Translations under genes and position numbers: made by a program
Assembly: GCA_007120305.1 (NCBI GenBank)
Contig: SKNW01000044.1
Coordinates: forward strand, 1 to 52,329
Direction of reading: 5' to 3'
DNA from: Gemmatimonadota bacterium
GTDB taxonomy: Bacteria; Gemmatimonadota; Gemmatimonadetes; Longimicrobiales; Gaopeijiaceae
DNA: 52,329 bases
In this document: positions 16,707 to 31,674 of the stretch, in pieces
Layout of the letters: each line of letters opens with the position of its first letter
Numbering within the stretch: position 1 is the stretch's first letter
Notes under the pieces: model-generated
Seen by the model: the letters and a program-made list of their open reading frames with translations, nothing else
Told to the model about the DNA's origin: nothing
The model's database searches: none

Positions 16707-17942
16707 ATGCGCGTGTTCCCGATCTGGAAGTCTACGGTAACGCCACGACTACGTGCGTCCGCAGTCCGCTTCCTCCCGGTGCTCTTCCTCGCTCTGCTCG
16801 CCGGCTGTGCCGGTGAGTTCCCCCAGTCGACCATTGATCCCCGCACCGACTTTGCGGATATCATTCACAGCCTGTACGTGAGCGTCTTCTGGTGGACGAT
16901 GCTCATCCTGGCGGTGGTCTGGGTGGCCCTCACGGTGACCCTCATCCGCTTCCGCGCCAAACCGGGCGACGGAAAGCCGAAGCAGATCCGCGGACACATG
17001 GGCCTGGAGATTGGATGGACGGTGGGGCCGGCCCTCATCGTGGTGGCCATCGCCATCCCGACGATCCAGGCGGTATTCGCCACCCAGCGTCCCATCTCCG
17101 AGGATGCCCTGGTGGTGGAGGTGACCGGTCACCGCTTCTGGTGGGAGTTCCACTACCCGGAACAGGGGGTCACCACGGCCAACGAGCTCTGGCTCCCGGT
17201 GGACCGTGCCGTCACGCTGCGGCTGGGAGCCTCCGACGTGATCCACTCCTTCTGGGTTCCCATGCTGGGTGGGAAGCGGGACCTGAATCCCACGCTGGCG
17301 GTCCGGGAGGGGGAGGAGCCCAAGTACAACTACCTGTACTTCACTCCCAGGGAGACGGGCCTCTACATGGGGCAGTGCGCCGAGTTCTGCGGTGAATCCC
17401 ATGCCTTCATGGCCATGCGGGTGAATGTCGTCTCGGACGCCGAATTCGATGCGTGGACCGCAGGGTGGCTCGAGTCACGCGGGGCGGCCATTCCGGCGGC
17501 ACCGGCCAGGGAAGGTGGCGCCACCGAAGAGGCCGTCCAGGAGGCCGAGGAGGCTGGCGTCACCCTGCAGGCCGCCGCTCCCACGTCGGCGGTGGACCTG
17601 GATCCGCTGGCCGTGCAGGGCCGGGACATCTTCCTGAACCAGGCGACCTGCGGGGCCTGCCATGCCATCCAGGGCACGGCGGCCCAGGGCCGGCTGGCTC
17701 CCGATCTTACCCAGTTCGGGCTTCGCACCAGCCTTGCGTCGGGCATCCTGGAGAACACGCCGGAGAACCTGGCCGCCTGGATCATCGACCCTTGGCGGTT
17801 CAAGCCGGGGGCGAACATGCCAGGCACCCAGTACGCCATGGACTCCCGGATCGTGTCCGGGAACCCGTTTGCGTGGCCGGCCACCGGCCTCGACGATGAA
17901 CAGGTACGCGCCGTGTCCGCCTACCTTCTGAGCCTCAAGTAA
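16707..17942 (+). CDS. ctaC: Cytochrome c oxidase subunit II with fused cytochrome c domain (caa3 type)
   Basis: 411 aa. A lipoprotein-type leader ends in LAGC (C34). Two transmembrane helices (about 61-82 and 112-130) precede the cupredoxin domain with CuA ligands in the CAEFCGESHAFM motif. An alanine/glutamate-rich linker joins this to a C-terminal class I cytochrome c with CGACH haem-binding residues at 315-319 and a distal Met in GANMPGTQY. The fusion defines a caa3-type oxidase that receives electrons directly from a cytochrome c or complex III. It is followed by subunits I, III and IV and the assembly factor CtaG. Confidence 0.97.
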   Translation: MRVFPIWKSTVTPRLRASAVRFLPVLFLALLAGCAGEFPQSTIDPRTDFADIIHSLYVSVFWWTMLILAVVWVALTVTLIRFRAKPGDGKPKQIRGHMGLEIGWTVGPALIVVAIAIPTIQAVFATQRPISEDALVVEVTGHRFWWEFHYPEQGVTTANELWLPVDRAVTLRLGASDVIHSFWVPMLGGKRDLNPTLAVREGEEPKYNYLYFTPRETGLYMGQCAEFCGESHAFMAMRVNVVSDAEFDAWTAGWLESRGAAIPAAPAREGGATEEAVQEAEEAGVTLQAAAPTSAVDLDPLAVQGRDIFLNQATCGACHAIQGTAAQGRLAPDLTQFGLRTSLASGILENTPENLAAWIIDPWRFKPGANMPGTQYAMDSRIVSGNPFAWPATGLDDEQVRAVSAYLLSLK

Positions 17943-17964
17943 CCCGCAGCGAGGAACGAGCTCG

Positions 17965-19803
17965 ATGTCGACGGCAACCATCGAACATGCCCCTGCGGGT
18001 CACGGGGCCCATACCGAGCCTACCGGTCTCTGGAGCTGGATCACGACGGTCGATCACAAGCGGATCGCCATCATGTACTTCCTGGCCGCCACCTTCTTCT
18101 TTTTCGTGGGGGGGGTGGAGGCGCTCCTGATCCGGATCCAGCTCTGGAACCCGGAGCAGGCGGTCTTCTCGGCCGAGTTGTACAACCAGCTCTTCACCAT
18201 GCACGGCACCACCATGGTGTTCCTGGTGGCCATGCCCATGGCGGTGGCCTTCTTCAACTACATCGTCCCGCTCCAGATCGGGGCGAGGGACGTGGCCTTT
18301 CCCCGGTTGAACGCCCTTTCGTTCTGGATCTTCCTCTTCGGAGGGATCTACATCAACCTGGGCTGGTTCATCGGGGCGGCCCCCCACGCCAGCTGGGTCG
18401 GGTACGCCACCCTGACCTCCAATGCCTACTCCCCGGGGCTCAACACCGACTTCTGGTTCATCGGACTCTCGATCATCGGCATCGCCTCCATTGCCGGAGG
18501 GGTGAACTTCATCACCACCATCGTGAACATGCGTGCGCCCGGGATGAAGATGATGCGCATGCCCCTGTTCACCTGGATGACCTTCGTGACGAGCTTCCTG
18601 CTCATCACGGCCATCCCGGTGATCGCGGTGGCCCTGATCTTCCTCGGATTCGACCGCACCTTCGGGTCGGTCTTCTTCGACCCGTCCATGGGGGGAGACC
18701 CGGTTCTCTGGCAGCACCTCTTCTGGATCTTCGGTCATCCGGAGGTCTACATCCTGATCCTCCCCTCCTTCGGCGTGATTTCCGACATCATCCCCACCTT
18801 CTCGAAGAAGCCGCTCTTCGGGTATCCCATCGTCGTGTACGCCGGGATCCTCATCGGCTTCATCGGGTGGGGCGTCTGGAGCCACCACATGTTCACCACG
18901 GGACTCGGCCCCATCGCCGACTCCTTCTTCGTGGCGGCCACGATGATCATCGCCATCCCCACCGGGGTGAAGATCTTCAACTGGATCGCCACCATGTGGG
19001 GGGGCACGATCCGGTTCACCACGGCCATGCTCTTCTGCATCGGCCTCCTGGCCGTCTTCACGGTGGGTGGGCTGTCGGGGATCATGCATGCCGCCGCTCC
19101 CATCACCCTGCAGCAGCATGACTCCTACTTCGTGGTGGCTCACTTCCACTACGTGATCGTGGGAGGGGCCATGATGGGGCTCTGGGCCGGTCTCTACTAC
19201 TGGTTCCCCAAGGTCACGGGCCGCCTCCTCAACGAGACGCTGGGCAAGTGGCATTTCTGGACCACCATGGTGGGCTTCAACCTCACCTTCTTCCCCATGC
19301 ACTTTTCGGGGCTCTACGGCATGCCCCGCCGCATCTACACCTACTCCGCCGACCTCAACGTGGACCTGTTCAACCAGCTTGCCACCATCGGCGCCTTCAT
19401 TTTCGGGATTTCGGCCCTGATCATGGTGTGGAACCTCTGGCACAGTGCACGAAAGGGAGAAAAGGCGGGGGCCAACCCATGGGAAGCGGCTACGCTGGAA
19501 TGGTCGATCCCCTCGCCGCCGCACCACTACAACTTTCCCGAGCTCCCGGTGGTCCGCAGCCGTGAGCCGCTCTGGAACGACGGGGAGCGCGAAGAGGTCC
19601 TGGCCGTCACCATGCTGGAGCCCGAGACCGAGCCGGTGATGCCCGTGCCTTCGTACTGGCCGATCCTGCTGGCCCTCTCCATCACGGTGGCCTGGGCCCT
19701 CGTGATGACCGGGATCTGGTGGGTGATCGTCCTGGGCATCCTCCCGGTCTTCTTCTGCACGCTCATGTGGGCCTTCGAGCCCGCCTTCCCGGAGGGGCAC
19801 TGA
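17965..19803 (+). CDS. ctaD: Cytochrome c oxidase subunit I
   Basis: 612 aa with 12 or more transmembrane helices, the catalytic subunit that reduces oxygen and pumps protons. The CuB/cross-link motif GHPEVYI (His, Glu, Tyr) is intact, as is the His pair in WSHHMFT. The K-channel lysine is present in PTGVKIFNW, and the haem a/a3 histidines in VVAHFHYVIVGG. The GHPEVY glutamate marks an A1-type haem-copper oxidase. The start follows a GAGGA ribosome-binding site and lies 22 bases after subunit II. Confidence 0.98.
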   Translation: MSTATIEHAPAGHGAHTEPTGLWSWITTVDHKRIAIMYFLAATFFFFVGGVEALLIRIQLWNPEQAVFSAELYNQLFTMHGTTMVFLVAMPMAVAFFNYIVPLQIGARDVAFPRLNALSFWIFLFGGIYINLGWFIGAAPHASWVGYATLTSNAYSPGLNTDFWFIGLSIIGIASIAGGVNFITTIVNMRAPGMKMMRMPLFTWMTFVTSFLLITAIPVIAVALIFLGFDRTFGSVFFDPSMGGDPVLWQHLFWIFGHPEVYILILPSFGVISDIIPTFSKKPLFGYPIVVYAGILIGFIGWGVWSHHMFTTGLGPIADSFFVAATMIIAIPTGVKIFNWIATMWGGTIRFTTAMLFCIGLLAVFTVGGLSGIMHAAAPITLQQHDSYFVVAHFHYVIVGGAMMGLWAGLYYWFPKVTGRLLNETLGKWHFWTTMVGFNLTFFPMHFSGLYGMPRRIYTYSADLNVDLFNQLATIGAFIFGISALIMVWNLWHSARKGEKAGANPWEAATLEWSIPSPPHHYNFPELPVVRSREPLWNDGEREEVLAVTMLEPETEPVMPVPSYWPILLALSITVAWALVMTGIWWVIVLGILPVFFCTLMWAFEPAFPEGH

Positions 19804-25895: not shown

Positions 25896-25961
25896 TTTGG
25901 CCCAGCTTCCATCCACTTCCCGGCCATTGTCATGACCGGAGCCACGACCGGAGGATCCCCT

Positions 25962-26918
25962 GTGCCGTACCGCATCGTCCTTCCCCTCGACGGGTCCCGC
26001 TTCGGAGAACGGGCGCTTCCCCTGGCCCTCTCCCTGGCCGAGCGCACTGGTGGAGCCCTTGACCTGATCAGCGTGGCCACGCCCATCGCCCAGTCCGTGG
26101 CCGGGCGGGACGATGCGCTGGCGGGCGACGAGTCCCGGGACCGGGGAAAGGTCCTGGCGCGCGAATATCTGGACGAACTCGCCGGCCGGATCCGGTCGGC
26201 CGGCTACGAGGGTTCCCTGGCGCGGGACGTGATCGCTCCCGGGAATGCCGCCCGCTCCATCGTGCGGTACCTGGCCGAAGTAGAGGCGGACCTGGTGGTC
26301 ATGAGCACCCACGGCCGAGGACCCCTCCAGCGCGCCTGGCTGGGAAGTACCGCCGACGGGGTCATCCGGAGGAGTCCCTGTCCGGTGCTTCTGGTTCGCC
26401 CACCGGACGCCGTGGCCGAGGTCGAGCCCGCGGATCGCCCTCCCGTGGACCTTTCAGCGCGCCCCGGCCCCTTCGAGCGCGTCCTTCTTCCCCTCGACGG
26501 TTCCGACGCCGCAGAGCGGGCCTTCGATGCGCTGCCACCCTTCGTGGCCGAGTCGACCACGCTCCACCTTCTCCGGGTTGTTCCCCCCATGGTCCCGGGG
26601 GGGTCTCCCTATCTCCCGCACGCGGTTCAGGAGGCCCAGGATCACGAGCTGGTTCGTCGAGCCGCCGGCGAGTACCTGGATCGTTTCCGGTCGAAGGTGG
26701 AAGCCTCCGGCTACGGCACCGAGACGCAGGTGCTTACGGGTGGGCAGCCGGCGGTTGCAATCCTTCGGACCACCGAGTCGGTGGGAGCCCAGCTCATCGC
26801 CATGTCCACCAGCGGTCGCGGAGGGGCTGCACGCCTCCTGCTGGGCAGCGTGGCCGACAAGGTTGTGCGGGGGGCTCCATGTCCGGTCCTCCTCTCCCGC
26901 ACGCCCGAAGACGCGTAG
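25962..26918 (+). CDS. Tandem universal stress protein (two Usp domains)
   Basis: 318 aa with two Usp domains (about 1-145 and 165-318). Each begins with a hydrophobic strand and LDGS, and ends with an ATP-binding-type G-x2-G-x9-G(S/T) motif (GRGPLQRAWLGST; GRGGAARLLLGSV). I prefer GTG at 25962 because GGAGG sits 7 bases upstream; an ATG at 25932 would add 10 residues. It lies 66 bases after mutY and may share its transcript. It likely binds ATP and acts in stress or growth-arrest survival. Confidence 0.9.
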   Translation: MPYRIVLPLDGSRFGERALPLALSLAERTGGALDLISVATPIAQSVAGRDDALAGDESRDRGKVLAREYLDELAGRIRSAGYEGSLARDVIAPGNAARSIVRYLAEVEADLVVMSTHGRGPLQRAWLGSTADGVIRRSPCPVLLVRPPDAVAEVEPADRPPVDLSARPGPFERVLLPLDGSDAAERAFDALPPFVAESTTLHLLRVVPPMVPGGSPYLPHAVQEAQDHELVRRAAGEYLDRFRSKVEASGYGTETQVLTGGQPAVAILRTTESVGAQLIAMSTSGRGGAARLLLGSVADKVVRGAPCPVLLSRTPEDA

Positions 26919-26961
26919 GGTGTGAGCCGGGATGACGTGATCAGGGATGTACGCCCGTACC

Positions 26962-26976
26962 GGGACGAATCGTCCC
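26962..26976. promoter_or_regulatory. Perfect 7-1-7 palindrome between the two usp genes
   Basis: GGGACGA and TCGTCCC are exact reverse complements around one central base. A second small palindrome (GTAC-GCCC-GTAC) lies just upstream. The site is 43 bases after the first usp stop in a 319-base gap and could be an operator or short hairpin. No coding sequence is apparent in this gap; a sigma-54-like site lies further on. Confidence 0.35.
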
Positions 26977-27156
26977 ATTGAGATCGAGAGTCGGGGACGG
27001 AAGGGGACCGGCGCTGGGGCCGGCTACCCACACCAACCCCTTCGTCGGGGCCGCACATCCACGCCAGGAGGAAGTCAAGCAACGCAAAGCTAAACAGAGA
27101 GTTAGCCTCGCTCTTCGCATTCTTCCAGCTCCCCGCGTCGGCCGCCGGAATCCCGG

Positions 27157-27172
27157 TGGCCGTGTCCTTGCA
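27157..27172 (+). promoter_or_regulatory. Candidate sigma-54 promoter for the second usp gene
   Basis: TGGC and TTGCA are spaced so that GG (27158-27159) and GC (27170-27171) are exactly 10 bases apart, the -24/-12 spacing required by sigma-54. Transcription would start near 27183, about 55 bases before the ATG at 27238. The window encodes an NtrC-type activator, so sigma-54 control is plausible, though not shown to act here. Confidence 0.4.
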
Positions 27173-27237
27173 CCCTCTGAACCTCGAAGGAACCCTTTCC
27201 ACGTTCCCTCCCCTGGTCCCCGGTGCCGGAGTTCTCC

Positions 27238-28164
27238 ATGTATCGCTCAATCCTCCTTCCCCTCGACGGATCTTCCTTCGCGGAAGAAGCTCTCCCCCTG
27301 GCCGCCCGCCTTGCGCAGGGTCAGGATGCCGCGCTGCACCTGGTTCACGTGATCCGTCCGGCGCCGGACGTGGACTTCAAGACCCCCGGCGAAGACCTGG
27401 CCTGGCGAAACCAGGTCAGGGAGGCCGCTTCCTCGGCCCTGGGCGAACTGGCTTCCCGGCTTCGGCGGAGCGGGGTGGCGGCCCACGCCGAGGTACGGGA
27501 GGGTCGGACGGTGGACGCCATCCTGGAAAGCGCGCGGGAGCATGACGCCGACCTCGTGGTTCTCACCACCCATGGCGCGGGCGGCTTCCGCCGATGGTGG
27601 CTTGGGAGTGTGGCCGATACCCTCCTGCGCCTCGGTGACTATCCCCTCCTCCTGGTTCGGCCGTGGGACGATACCTCCGATCGGGAGGCAGGAGAGCCTC
27701 GCTTCCAGACGGTCCTCGTCCCCCTGGACGGGTCCCCGGCTTCGGAGGCCGTTCTCCCCCACGTGCGTTGGCTCAGGGATGCGAAGGAGGCTCGGCTCCT
27801 CCTGGTCCGGGTGGTGCCCTCCCCCCTGGAGGTGGGATCGCTCTACGGGATCCCCTCGGTGCGGATGGAAAGCGAGGCCCACCGCTGGCAGCGGGAAGCG
27901 GCGCGGGCCTACCTGGAGGAGGTGGCCGCCCGGCTGGGGGATGGAGAGGGGGACGTCCCCGCCCCGGATCTCCGGGTCGTGGAGGCTTCGAGTGCTGCCG
28001 AGGGGATCCTTGAGGCGGCCCGGGTGAACGGGGCCGATCTCATCGCCCTCTCCACCGAGGGGCGGTCAGGCTTCGGCCGCACCGTCATCGGAAGTGTGGC
28101 CGACAAGGTCATCCGGGGCGCCGCAGTTCCGGTGCTGGCTGTTCGCCCCGGGCCTTCGCGCTGA
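27238..28164 (+). CDS. Tandem universal stress protein (two Usp domains)
   Basis: 308 aa, the same two-domain layout as the 25962-26918 protein. Domain one begins MYRSILLPLDGSSFAEEALPLA and has GAGGFRRWWLGSV; domain two begins VLVPLDGSPASEAVLP and has GRSGFGRTVIGSVADKVIRG. The ATG at 27238 has GGAG six bases upstream and is preferred over a GTG at 27223. It is probably a paralogue of the first usp gene but has its own 319-base upstream region. Confidence 0.92.
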   Translation: MYRSILLPLDGSSFAEEALPLAARLAQGQDAALHLVHVIRPAPDVDFKTPGEDLAWRNQVREAASSALGELASRLRRSGVAAHAEVREGRTVDAILESAREHDADLVVLTTHGAGGFRRWWLGSVADTLLRLGDYPLLLVRPWDDTSDREAGEPRFQTVLVPLDGSPASEAVLPHVRWLRDAKEARLLLVRVVPSPLEVGSLYGIPSVRMESEAHRWQREAARAYLEEVAARLGDGEGDVPAPDLRVVEASSAAEGILEAARVNGADLIALSTEGRSGFGRTVIGSVADKVIRGAAVPVLAVRPGPSR

Positions 28165-28286: not shown

Positions 28287-29765
28287 TCAGAACTGGGTGG
28301 GGTCGAACCCCTGGAATCCCTTCCCCTGGGCGCCGCCCGCACCACCCGAGCCCTCGTGGGGCGCCCGGATGTAGCGACCCTGGTCCGATCGGGAGATCCG
28401 CTTTCGGGCCACCAGCGCCTCCAGGACCAGTTCGCACGCAGCGGCGCGGCGTCCCGCGCCGGCGGACGGCGTTGCCAGGCCGGTGGAGGCCACGACATCG
28501 AGGAGTCCCGGAACCACCTGGAATCCGCGCACGCAGGCCTCGGCCCCTGCATCGTCCGAGACCTGCAGCGCCCCTCCCTCCTCGAAGTACTCCACCACGT
28601 CTTCCACGTCCACACCCCCGGCCCGGTGTTCGAAGGTTTCGGCGGCGGCCCGGGCCACCAGCTCCCGGGCGATCCGGTCAGCGCCCTGGAGTTCCCCCTC
28701 GTATTCGAGCTCCATCTTCCCCGTGATGGTGGGGAGCGCGGCGTACAGGTCCCCGACCCGGGGTACGGCCCGGTCCTCGCCCAGCCGGAAGGCCCGGCGC
28801 TCGGCATTGGAGATGATCCCCTCCAGCACGGAGATCGGCATCCGCTGGCTCACGCCCGATCGAGGGTCGATCCGCTTGTCGGAGCGGGCGAGAAAGGCGA
28901 CCCGCTCCGCGATTTCGGCCACGAAGTCCGGGACCTCCACGGGGAGCGCATCCCGCTCCGTCCACGCCTCGGCTGCCGTGATGGACATCCCGGTCTCCAC
29001 CGAAGCCGGGTAGTGGGTGCGGATCTCCGCTCCGATCCGATCCTTGAGCGGAGTGATGATCTTGCCGCGGGCAGTGTAGTCCTCCGGGTTGGCCGTGAAG
29101 ACCAGGAAAACATCCAGGGCCAGGCGGATGGGGAATCCCTTGATCTGCACATCCCCTTCCTGGAGGATGTTGAAGAGGCCCACCTGGATCTTGCCGGCCA
29201 GGTCCGGGAGCTCGTTGATGGCGAAGATTCCCCGGTTCGCCCGGGGGAGCAGACCGTAGTGGATGGTCAGCTCATCGGAGAGGAGATGCCCGCCCTTCGC
29301 CGCCTTGATGGGATCCACGTCGCCCAGGATATCCGCAATGGTGACGTCGGGCGTGGCCAGCTTCTCCACGTAGCGGAGTTCCCGCGGGATCCAGGCGATG
29401 GGGGTGGCGTCTCCCTCTGCGGCCACCTGGAGTCGCCCCTCCTTGGAGAGGGGATGGAAGGGGTCATCATTCACCTCGCTCCCGGCCAGCGCCGGGACCT
29501 CGTCGTCGAGAAGCGAGGTGAGCTGACGAAGGATGCGGGTCTTGGCCTGCCCCCGGAGACCCAGGAGAATGAAATCCTGGCGCGCCAGGATGGCGTTCAC
29601 GACCTGGGGCACCACCGTGTCGTCATACCCCTGGATGCCGGGGAAGAGGACCTCACCGGCGCGGAGCTTCCGGACCAGATTGGCGCGCATCTCGGACTTG
29701 ACGGAACGGGGCTGCCACCCTGAAGCACGCAGCTCTCCGAGGGTGGTGGGACGGCGATCGGTCAT
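28287..29765 (-). CDS. AAA+ ATPase, magnesium-chelatase subunit I / MoxR-like
   Basis: 492 aa. Modified Walker A GLRGQAKTR (about 65-75), an extended ChlI-like insert and Walker B-like GIFAINELPDL are followed by FLVFTANPEDYTARGKIITPLKDRIGAEIRTHYP, the sensor-1 region. The C-terminal 150 residues are lid-like helices and an additional Gly-rich tail. Family members remodel targets together with a VWA-domain partner; the candidate partner is at 23315-24652. The ATG at 29765 was chosen over a longer low-complexity extension that would overlap the ETF-QO start region on the other strand. Confidence 0.88.
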   Translation of the reverse strand: MTDRRPTTLGELRASGWQPRSVKSEMRANLVRKLRAGEVLFPGIQGYDDTVVPQVVNAILARQDFILLGLRGQAKTRILRQLTSLLDDEVPALAGSEVNDDPFHPLSKEGRLQVAAEGDATPIAWIPRELRYVEKLATPDVTIADILGDVDPIKAAKGGHLLSDELTIHYGLLPRANRGIFAINELPDLAGKIQVGLFNILQEGDVQIKGFPIRLALDVFLVFTANPEDYTARGKIITPLKDRIGAEIRTHYPASVETGMSITAAEAWTERDALPVEVPDFVAEIAERVAFLARSDKRIDPRSGVSQRMPISVLEGIISNAERRAFRLGEDRAVPRVGDLYAALPTITGKMELEYEGELQGADRIARELVARAAAETFEHRAGGVDVEDVVEYFEEGGALQVSDDAGAEACVRGFQVVPGLLDVVASTGLATPSAGAGRRAAACELVLEALVARKRISRSDQGRYIRAPHEGSGGAGGAQGKGFQGFDPTQF

Positions 29766-29789
29766 GGGGTCTCCAGCCGGACATCCGGG

Positions 29790-29818
29790 GTGACGGGGTG
29801 GGCCGGATCCGCTAGAAT
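29790..29818 (+). promoter_or_regulatory. Candidate sigma-70 promoter for ETF-QO
   Basis: GTGACG and TAGAAT are separated by 17 bases, matching 4 of 6 and 5 of 6 consensus positions. Transcription would start near 29825, leaving a leader of about 120 bases. The leader contains three degenerate copies of CCTCCGACC at about 15-base spacing (29879-29920). Confidence 0.45.
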
Positions 29819-29943
29819 CGAACGGTCTGCGGCCCGGGGAGTGCGGGATACCGCCCGTGTCTCCGGGGGTTCCTTCCCGCTGCCTCCGACCCGCATGCCT
29901 CCGACCTGAACGCCTCCGGAGAAAACCCAGGAGCCTCCCTGAC

Positions 29944-31674
29944 ATGCCTGATCGTCCCGCCGTCCCCGCCCCCGACGAGCCCCGGGGCGTCCCGCCCCAG
30001 GTTCCGCCTCTGCACGGACGCGTCCACCCCCTCTCGGAGCAGCCTCCGCTCCCCAGCGACCAGGTGATCCTGCACGAAGCACCCGACGAGGAGGCCGTTC
30101 CCATGGACGTTCTCTTCGTGGGTGGGGGTCCCGCCGGGCTGGCGGGGGCCATCGAGCTGGCCCGCCTGGTGAAGGCCGACAACGAGGCGGGCGGCGGGCT
30201 CGGCGACATCGAGATCGGGGTCCTGGAAAAGGCGGCGGCCCTGGGGGAGCATTCTCTTTCCGGGGCCGTCCTGAACCCCGGGCCCTTCCGCGAACTCTTC
30301 CCTGATCTGGCGATGGAGGATTTCCCGTTCCGCCGCCCGGTCTCGAGCGAGGCGGTCTACTTCCTTCGCGAAAACGGGGCCACCCGCCTCCCCACGCCTC
30401 CGAGCATGCGGAACCACGGCAACTGGGTCGCCTCCCTGTCGGAGGTGGTCCGCTGGATGGGAGAGCGGGCGGAGGAACTGGGCGTCAACGTCTTTCCCGG
30501 ATTTCCGGTATCGAGCCTCCTGGCCGAGGACCGGCGCGTCGTCGGGGTCCGGACCACGCCCTCCGGCCTCGGCCGCGACGGTGAGCCCGGACCGGGTCAC
30601 GAGCCGGCCATGGATCTCACGGCCCGGGTCACCGTGCTCTCGGAGGGGACCCGGGGACTCCTGACCCAGGCGTGGAACGGCTGGCAGGGGACGACCTCGG
30701 CCAATCCGCAGATCTATGCCCTCGGCGTGAAGGAGCTCTGGGAGACGAAGAAGCCCCTGGACCGGGTCATTCATACCCTGGGCTGGCCTCTTCCGGGGAG
30801 CGCCTTTGGCGGCTCCTGGATGTACCCCATGGAGGACAACCTGGTCTCCCTCGGGCTCGTCGTGGGGCTGGACTACCCCGATGCGCGCCTCGACGTCCAC
30901 GAACTCCTGCAGCGCATGAAGCTCCACCCCCTCTTCCGCGAGATCCTGGAGGGGGGCGAGATGGTGGAGTGGGGCGCAAAGACCATTCCCGAGGGGGGAT
31001 TTCATGCCCTTGCCGACCGGCGCCATGGCGACGGCTGCCTGGTGGTCGGGGACTCCGCCGGATACGTGGACGTGCCTTCCCTCAAGGGGATCCACTACGC
31101 CGCCTACTCGGGTATGCTCGCCGCCCGGGCCATCTTCCGCGCGCTCAAGGCCGACGACACCTCCGAGGCCGGACTCCGCTCGTACACGGAGTCGGTGGAT
31201 CAGTCCTTCATCGTCTCCGACATGAAGAAGACCCGGAACATGCGACTGGCCTTCAAGTCCGGCTTCGTCTCCGGAGGCATGAAGGCGGGGCTCATGACCC
31301 TCACCGGGGGGAGGTTCCCCGGCGGCCGGATCGCCGCGGAGGAAGACGCGGCCGAGCCCCGGGAACTCTCCCCCACGCCCCCTGCGCCCTTCGTTCCCGA
31401 CGGCAAGCTCACCTTCTCCAAGCTGGACGCCGTCTACAAGTCCGGGAATGCCACCCGCGACGACATTCCGTCGCACCTGGTGGTGGGAGAGGACGTGAGC
31501 GCCGAAATGGCCGAGTTCCTCTCCTGCATGTGTCCGGCCGGGGTCTACGAGCGGGATGGCGACCGCCTGGTGGTGAACGCCCCGAACTGCGTCGACTGCA
31601 AGGCCACCGACGTGGTGGGGCCCCGCTGGACACCACGGGAAGGCGGCAGCGGTCCCTCGTACCGAAGAATGTGA
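29944..31674 (+). CDS. Electron transfer flavoprotein-ubiquinone oxidoreductase
   Basis: 576 aa. The N-terminal FAD-binding VLFVGGGPAGLAGAIELA follows a Pro-rich leader of some 50 residues. The middle has GEHSLSGAVLNP and the quinone-site region (SLGLVVGLDYPDARLDVHELLQRMK). The C-terminal ferredoxin-like segment has CMCPAGVYE, NCVDCKATD and REGGSGPSYRRM. Canonical ETF-QO binds a [4Fe-4S] cluster with Cys in CPAGVY and three in NCxxCxxCD; here the third is Thr, and an extra Cys lies two residues before the CPAGVY Cys. The enzyme would pass electrons from ETF to the quinone pool. No etfAB genes are nearby. Confidence 0.95.
   Translation: MPDRPAVPAPDEPRGVPPQVPPLHGRVHPLSEQPPLPSDQVILHEAPDEEAVPMDVLFVGGGPAGLAGAIELARLVKADNEAGGGLGDIEIGVLEKAAALGEHSLSGAVLNPGPFRELFPDLAMEDFPFRRPVSSEAVYFLRENGATRLPTPPSMRNHGNWVASLSEVVRWMGERAEELGVNVFPGFPVSSLLAEDRRVVGVRTTPSGLGRDGEPGPGHEPAMDLTARVTVLSEGTRGLLTQAWNGWQGTTSANPQIYALGVKELWETKKPLDRVIHTLGWPLPGSAFGGSWMYPMEDNLVSLGLVVGLDYPDARLDVHELLQRMKLHPLFREILEGGEMVEWGAKTIPEGGFHALADRRHGDGCLVVGDSAGYVDVPSLKGIHYAAYSGMLAARAIFRALKADDTSEAGLRSYTESVDQSFIVSDMKKTRNMRLAFKSGFVSGGMKAGLMTLTGGRFPGGRIAAEEDAAEPRELSPTPPAPFVPDGKLTFSKLDAVYKSGNATRDDIPSHLVVGEDVSAEMAEFLSCMCPAGVYERDGDRLVVNAPNCVDCKATDVVGPRWTPREGGSGPSYRRM

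Follow-up and report, generated by a model that had tools for sequence, protein, structure and literature searches.

ETF-QO, through which electrons from fatty acids enter the respiratory chain, is known as a flavoenzyme with a [4Fe-4S] cluster. Arguments on what this cluster does in the relay from ETF to FAD have been based on the form with four cluster Cys, one in a CPAGVY motif and three in NCxxCxxC. FixX, of the bifurcating Fix system, is credited with two [4Fe-4S] motifs (PMC6085437). Mycobacterial EtfD, an ETF:menaquinone oxidoreductase, carries a linear [3Fe-4S] cluster according to another report, which also describes it as not homologous to mammalian ETF-QO and mentions EtfD homologues in Gemmatimonadota (PMC13083937).

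Here we analysed a 52,329-nucleotide stretch of DNA from a Gemmatimonadota bacterium (the window). It makes up a single contig (G000:C77) in a MAG of 2.03 Mb and 75.6% completeness. It encodes a homologue of ETF-QO (Table 1). The frame is open from a GTG at position 29857 and runs without a break; residues are numbered from the first ATG. The gene end reads AEFLSCMCPAGVYERDGDRLVVNAPNCVDCKATDVVGPRWTPREGGSGPSYRRM, with the stop codon at 31672-31674 by sequence and ORF, and the C-terminal tail of the protein is SCMCPAGVYERDGDRLVVNAPNCVDCKATDVVGPRW. Porcine ETF-QO (2gmh) is the closest solved relative in a phmmer search (E 5.3e-94). The quinone-binding domain matches PF21162 with 92.5 bits (cut-off 27.7) and the cluster domain matches PF05187 with 47.4 bits (cut-off 24), the latter a low score by comparison with the 60-183 bits of long four-Cys matches and the single PF05187 match in this genome. 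Upstream lies a divergent gene (28287-30209, minus strand) that by eye resembles a Mg-chelatase/MoxR-type ATPase, its ORF having no Pfam match at E 1e-5; positions 25932-28164 encode two adjoining proteins with two universal-stress-protein domains apiece.

Table 1. Features of the ETF-QO homologue in the window, and loci of the seven-Cys group. Row counts refer to the cleaned set of 185 relatives.
Feature	Position	Strand	Basis or conservation
ETF-QO homologue	29944..31674	+	576 aa from first ATG; Pfam, phmmer, fold match
Quinone-binding domain PF21162, residues 258-348	30715..30987	+	Pfam scan
Fe-S cluster domain PF05187 (Fer4_ETF_QO), residues 487-573	31402..31662	+	Pfam scan, genome search
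N-x-T-R-D segment, residues 502-506	31447..31461	+	new in three-Cys clade
Extra Cys528	31525..31527	+	2/100 three-Cys rows, 0/85 others
Cys530 of CPAGVY, putative cluster ligand 1	31531..31533	+	invariant in 185/185 rows
Cys549, putative cluster ligand 2	31588..31590	+	invariant in 185/185 rows
Cys552, putative cluster ligand 3	31597..31599	+	invariant in 185/185 rows
Thr555 at place of fourth ligand Cys	31606..31608	+	three-Cys rows: T 72/100, I 28/100; others: C 85/85
Seven-Cys loci			L002, L003, L067 and 26 Planctomycetota-sample loci of L196-L223

The cluster motif of the window protein, CPAGVY followed by NCVDCKATD, contains three cluster Cys, with Thr555 in the place of the fourth. In an alignment to the porcine protein (NCVHCKTCDIKDPSQNINW), Thr555 stands opposite the last Cys of NCVHCKTCD, so that an earlier note on this DNA was right to report one canonical cluster Cys as missing. 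The window protein has no Cys past residue 552, and its 40 residues before CPA hold no second, FixX-type Cys set and no Cys except Cys528. It is an ETF-QO by descent that falls outside the four-Cys [4Fe-4S] definition.

An AlphaFold2 model of the window protein, built on a 50-row alignment that included four-Cys relatives and may thus be pulled towards their fold, reached a pLDDT of 90.9 and a pTM of 0.90; within the cluster domain, the blocks that begin with residue 511 score 88-96. Residues 47-576 of the model align to 2gmh_A with a VIA-align Z of 46.5 and an rmsd of 1.9 over 519 residues, in agreement with Foldseek. In the model, the cluster domain keeps the predicted ETF-QO fold despite the loss of one ligand.

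To place the motif among relatives, motifs were read in ETF-QO genes from PF05187 surveys, each a sample of a phylum, and from a protein search. The fourth Cys is absent from 64 of the 66 Gemmatimonadota genomes read (of 242 with a PF05187 match) and present in two. The 64 comprise 59 with the motif NC[VI]DC[KR]ATD, here called D-type, and five with NCVQCGAI, a Q-type motif. Among Actinomycetota, 20 of 21 ETF-QOs lack the fourth Cys, all of them Q-type, and one has it; the other eight of the 29 PF05187 matches in this sample are FixX and not ETF-QO. All 54 genomes read of 102 in the Pseudomonadota sample (G398), with loci drawn from the best-scoring matches together with low-scoring ones, have the fourth Cys, as do 28 of the 31 read of 33 in the Planctomycetota sample (G847); the three without it are from G865, G878 and G847 itself, the last represented by L059.

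The cleaned set, which holds 185 distinct relatives of nearly full length, was obtained by removing duplicates, FixC and FixX loci, fragments (L008, L015, L017, L027 and L131, all three-Cys; L211 and L221, both seven-Cys), rows ending before the motif (L050, L051, L057, L061 and L152) and loci that are not ETF-QO reads (L065 and L153-L155). The fourth Cys is present in 85 of these rows and lacking in 100, of which 72 are D-type and 28 Q-type (NC[VI]QC[GN]AI). The loss is therefore not an error, nor is it peculiar to the window protein. That the window itself comes from an incomplete MAG might have raised the thought of an assembly or annotation artefact, but the frame is unbroken and the motif recurs in many independent genomes, several of them single-contig (such as G158, G199 and G315), and we consider this explanation ruled out for practical purposes.

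The 100 three-Cys proteins share more than a missing ligand. Exactly 24 residues follow CxxC in every one of them, compared with 28 in 79 of the 85 four-Cys rows, and a four-residue deletion therefore accompanies the loss of the Cys. The suggestion of the earlier note that a clade may share the change is thus borne out, in 100 of 185 distinct relatives and together with a fixed deletion. The position of the CKTC Thr (residue 554) is Ala in 100/100 three-Cys rows, that of Asp559 is Gly in 100/100, and that of His551 is Asp in 72 and Gln in 28. Residues 502-506, mostly T-x-H-E-E in canonical rows, have become N-x-T-R-D (N, R and D in 100 and T in 99 of 100 rows), residues that are rare in rows outside the three-Cys group. 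His511 is nearly invariant everywhere (184/185).

In trees built without the cluster columns, the three-Cys rows form one clade with an SH-aLRT support of 100, consisting of a D-type part (support 100) and a Q-type part (99). Its members are nearly all Gemmatimonadota ETF-QOs read, most of those from Actinomycetota and a few from Planctomycetota. Since this clade is recovered without the cluster columns, the sequences argue for a single old loss of the fourth Cys followed by strict conservation rather than decay. FixC proteins form one outgroup clade (SH-aLRT 100), and the window protein lies among the ETF-QOs, apart from FixC. One three-Cys sequence, L147, the upstream part of which reads X, formed an extreme branch outside the clade in the first tree and was dropped thereafter. 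The D-type proteins of L045, L046, L047, L059 and L225 are nested within the Gemmatimonadota clade; the genomes of L045, L047 and L059 are labelled Planctomycetota, that of L046 is labelled "bacterium", and L225 is from the G847 phylum sample. The nested position of the Planctomycetota rows suggests lateral transfer or mis-binning.

What could take the place of the missing ligand? Two candidates among the Cys themselves were considered, one of them the extra Cys proposed in the earlier note. A shift of the third Cys of NCxxCxxC to another position is contradicted by the relatives, because none of the 100 three-Cys rows has a Cys downstream of CxxC. The other candidate was the Cys two residues before Cys530, which would supply the fourth ligand. 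Cys528 is indeed found both in the window protein and in a protein from the same-genus genome G345 (L031; L128, from the same genome, is the same protein and was removed as a duplicate), and in the model it lies within a predicted helix (520-529) directly before Cys530. Yet the other 98 three-Cys proteins, which lack the fourth ligand just as these two do, have to function with no Cys at this position. Conservation of the CM-Cys in relatives had been set beforehand as the test of this idea, and this Cys was found in only two of 100, both from one genus, which speaks against it. These two are also the only three-Cys rows with any Cys in the 40 residues before CPA, and the commonest residue at the position is His (57/100). 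Given its occurrence in a single genus, Cys528 is therefore best seen, from the alignment, as a local oddity and not as a general replacement ligand; as the fourth ligand of the window protein it is very improbable. No further conserved Cys is common to the D-type and Q-type proteins, the best other being residue 166, which is Cys in 66% of D-type proteins only. The side chain of residue 555 offers no shared replacement either, since D-type proteins have Thr there and Q-type proteins have Ile, which cannot be a ligand.

Because the common ancestor had already lost the fourth Cys and none of its descendants shows a general Cys substitute, the cluster is likely to be [3Fe-4S] or a [4Fe-4S] cluster with an open iron. 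Our preferred reading, to which we assign a probability of about 0.5, is that the window protein is a working ETF:quinone oxidoreductase of a monophyletic three-Cys subfamily, with a cluster that is most likely [3Fe-4S] or a [4Fe-4S] cluster with a labile iron. Electrons from acyl-CoA dehydrogenases would pass to ETF, then to the Fe-S cluster, to FAD and probably to menaquinone. The cluster, if present as we infer, would be held by Cys530, Cys549 and Cys552, and in the [4Fe-4S] alternative water or a weak oxygen ligand would bind the fourth iron, which would be readily lost. Aconitase presents the same order of a distant Cys and a CxxC, with one open iron. [3Fe-4S] clusters are usually of fairly high potential.

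Two other readings of the site have to be weighed against this one. Loss of a ligand, together with the four-residue deletion and the changes at His551, Thr554 and Asp559, reshapes the site, and the cluster could be absent or [2Fe-2S], with electrons from ETF moving straight to FAD or through a two-iron centre. However, Cys530, Cys549 and Cys552 are kept in 100/100 three-Cys rows, which would be unexpected without a metal, while the other Cys of these proteins are unconserved, and we regard this reading as improbable. Somewhat better placed, though still unlikely, is a stable [4Fe-4S] cluster that has gained a non-Cys fourth ligand from a residue new to the clade. The candidate is Asp506 of the N-x-T-R-D segment, where Glu is usual in canonical proteins, or else another oxygen ligand; His511, conserved in nearly all rows and so not new to the clade, is a further possible non-Cys ligand. 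Asp506, Arg505 and Asn502 are each found in 100/100 and Thr504 in 99/100 proteins of the three-Cys clade, and from the difference between this segment and the canonical T-x-H-E-E, the branch on which the Cys was lost is also the one on which the segment changed. Some ferredoxins have [4Fe-4S] clusters with an Asp ligand. Against this, two changes on one branch amount to a single event, and the link between them may be due to chance.

In support of the preferred reading, a three-Cys cluster in a working enzyme, an ETF alpha gene adjoins the ETF-QO gene in four D-type loci (L011, L044, L049 and L187) and one Q-type locus (L062), and ETF alpha is present in 12 of 13 genomes tested; no ETF alpha turned up in the MAG of the window itself (75.6% complete). 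UbiG scored over the cut-off in 11/11 genomes of the Pseudomonadota sample and in 0/21 of Gemmatimonadota and Actinomycetota (32 genomes in all), whereas proteins of the futalosine route to menaquinone were found in 0/11 and 14/21, respectively. The 21 genomes comprise 17 in which the three-Cys motif was read, three seven-Cys genomes and one (G017) with its motif unread; for the 17 three-Cys genomes the counts are 0/17 for UbiG and 11/17 for the futalosine route. These distributions indicate that three-Cys enzymes probably serve menaquinone. Menaquinone as the sole cause of the Cys loss was considered, and this explanation is weakened by the seven-Cys genomes G294, G178 and G584, in which UbiG is not over the cut-off and futalosine-route proteins are present, but the four canonical Cys are kept; menaquinone alone is thus not enough to account for the loss. 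Positions 16707-19803 of the window encode two subunits of cytochrome c oxidase, subunit I and a subunit II to which a cytochrome c domain is fused, so the host probably respires oxygen.

A further group of ETF-QOs carries more Cys instead of fewer. The pattern C-x3-C-x7-C-x3-CPA...CxxCxxC is found in 29/29 distinct rows of this group, with three additional invariant Cys at positions -16, -12 and -4 before CPA (29/29). The rows come from the Planctomycetota sample (26), two exceptions among Gemmatimonadota and one actinomycetotal genome. FixX proteins from the same surveys have a similar arrangement of Cys, several of them with an eighth, and by this likeness the seven-Cys ETF-QOs possibly hold a second Fe-S site as in FixX. 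In two FixX-like proteins of Gemmatimonadota family f11 (L145 and L148), the upstream Cys set is gone and Cys like those of CPA...CxxCxxC are kept; here, too, a cluster site may have been lost, in parallel with the ETF-QO case.

In a FixC-rooted tree of the shared flavoprotein part only, the seven-Cys rows form a basal grade, and the four-Cys and the three-Cys rows form one clade each (supports 99 and 100); the base of this tree is poorly resolved and is compatible with a single seven-Cys clade. In the other tree, built without the cluster columns, the seven-Cys rows adjoin the three-Cys clade as its nearest ETF-QO group. Because of the unresolved base and this placement, we put forward only as a tentative suggestion that an ancestral ETF-QO had two clusters, much as if FixC and FixX were joined into a single chain, and that its Fe-S ligands were lost stepwise. 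The seven-Cys group would have kept both sites and the canonical, mitochondrial-type branch one four-Cys site. In the branch of Gemmatimonadota and Actinomycetota the reduction would have continued until three Cys were left, and the native cluster at this site, [3Fe-4S] or one with an open iron, would be tuned for menaquinone. If this were true, the ETF-QO family would be a natural series showing which cluster the relay needs.

A widespread natural form with one ligand missing makes the relay role of the cluster testable without damage to the protein. It may also be relevant to the reduction of low-potential menaquinone by ETF. In Rhodobacter sphaeroides ETF-QO, mutation of the CPAGVY Tyr or the CKTC Thr reportedly lowers the potential of the cluster; if so, Ala554, which is invariant in the three-Cys clade, would be the natural equivalent of the Thr mutant. 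The homology-based annotation "ETF-ubiquinone oxidoreductase, [4Fe-4S]" is probably wrong for the three-Cys branch in both cluster and quinone.

In comparison with known systems, EtfD has the same role as that proposed for three-Cys ETF-QO, but it is a membrane protein with CCG domains, and a Pfam scan found no CCG domain in the window protein. Of the FixC/FixX (EtfCX) pair, FixC has the flavoprotein fold in common (7koe_C, Z 34.6 to the window model), and the CPA...CxxCxxC core is also found in FixX; however, FixC is a separate clade, and the window protein is one polypeptide with three cluster Cys. The seven-Cys group differs from the three-Cys clade in keeping the four canonical Cys and in its three additional invariant ones. 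A search of a collection made up mostly of open-access papers yielded no description of an ETF-QO of the three-Cys or the seven-Cys kind. With canonical porcine ETF-QO, the window protein shares the FAD, quinone-binding and cluster domains, at 37% identity over 519 aligned residues; it differs in Thr at the place of the fourth Cys, Ala554 for Thr, Asp551 for His and Gly559 for Asp, in the four-residue deletion and in the new N-x-T-R-D segment.
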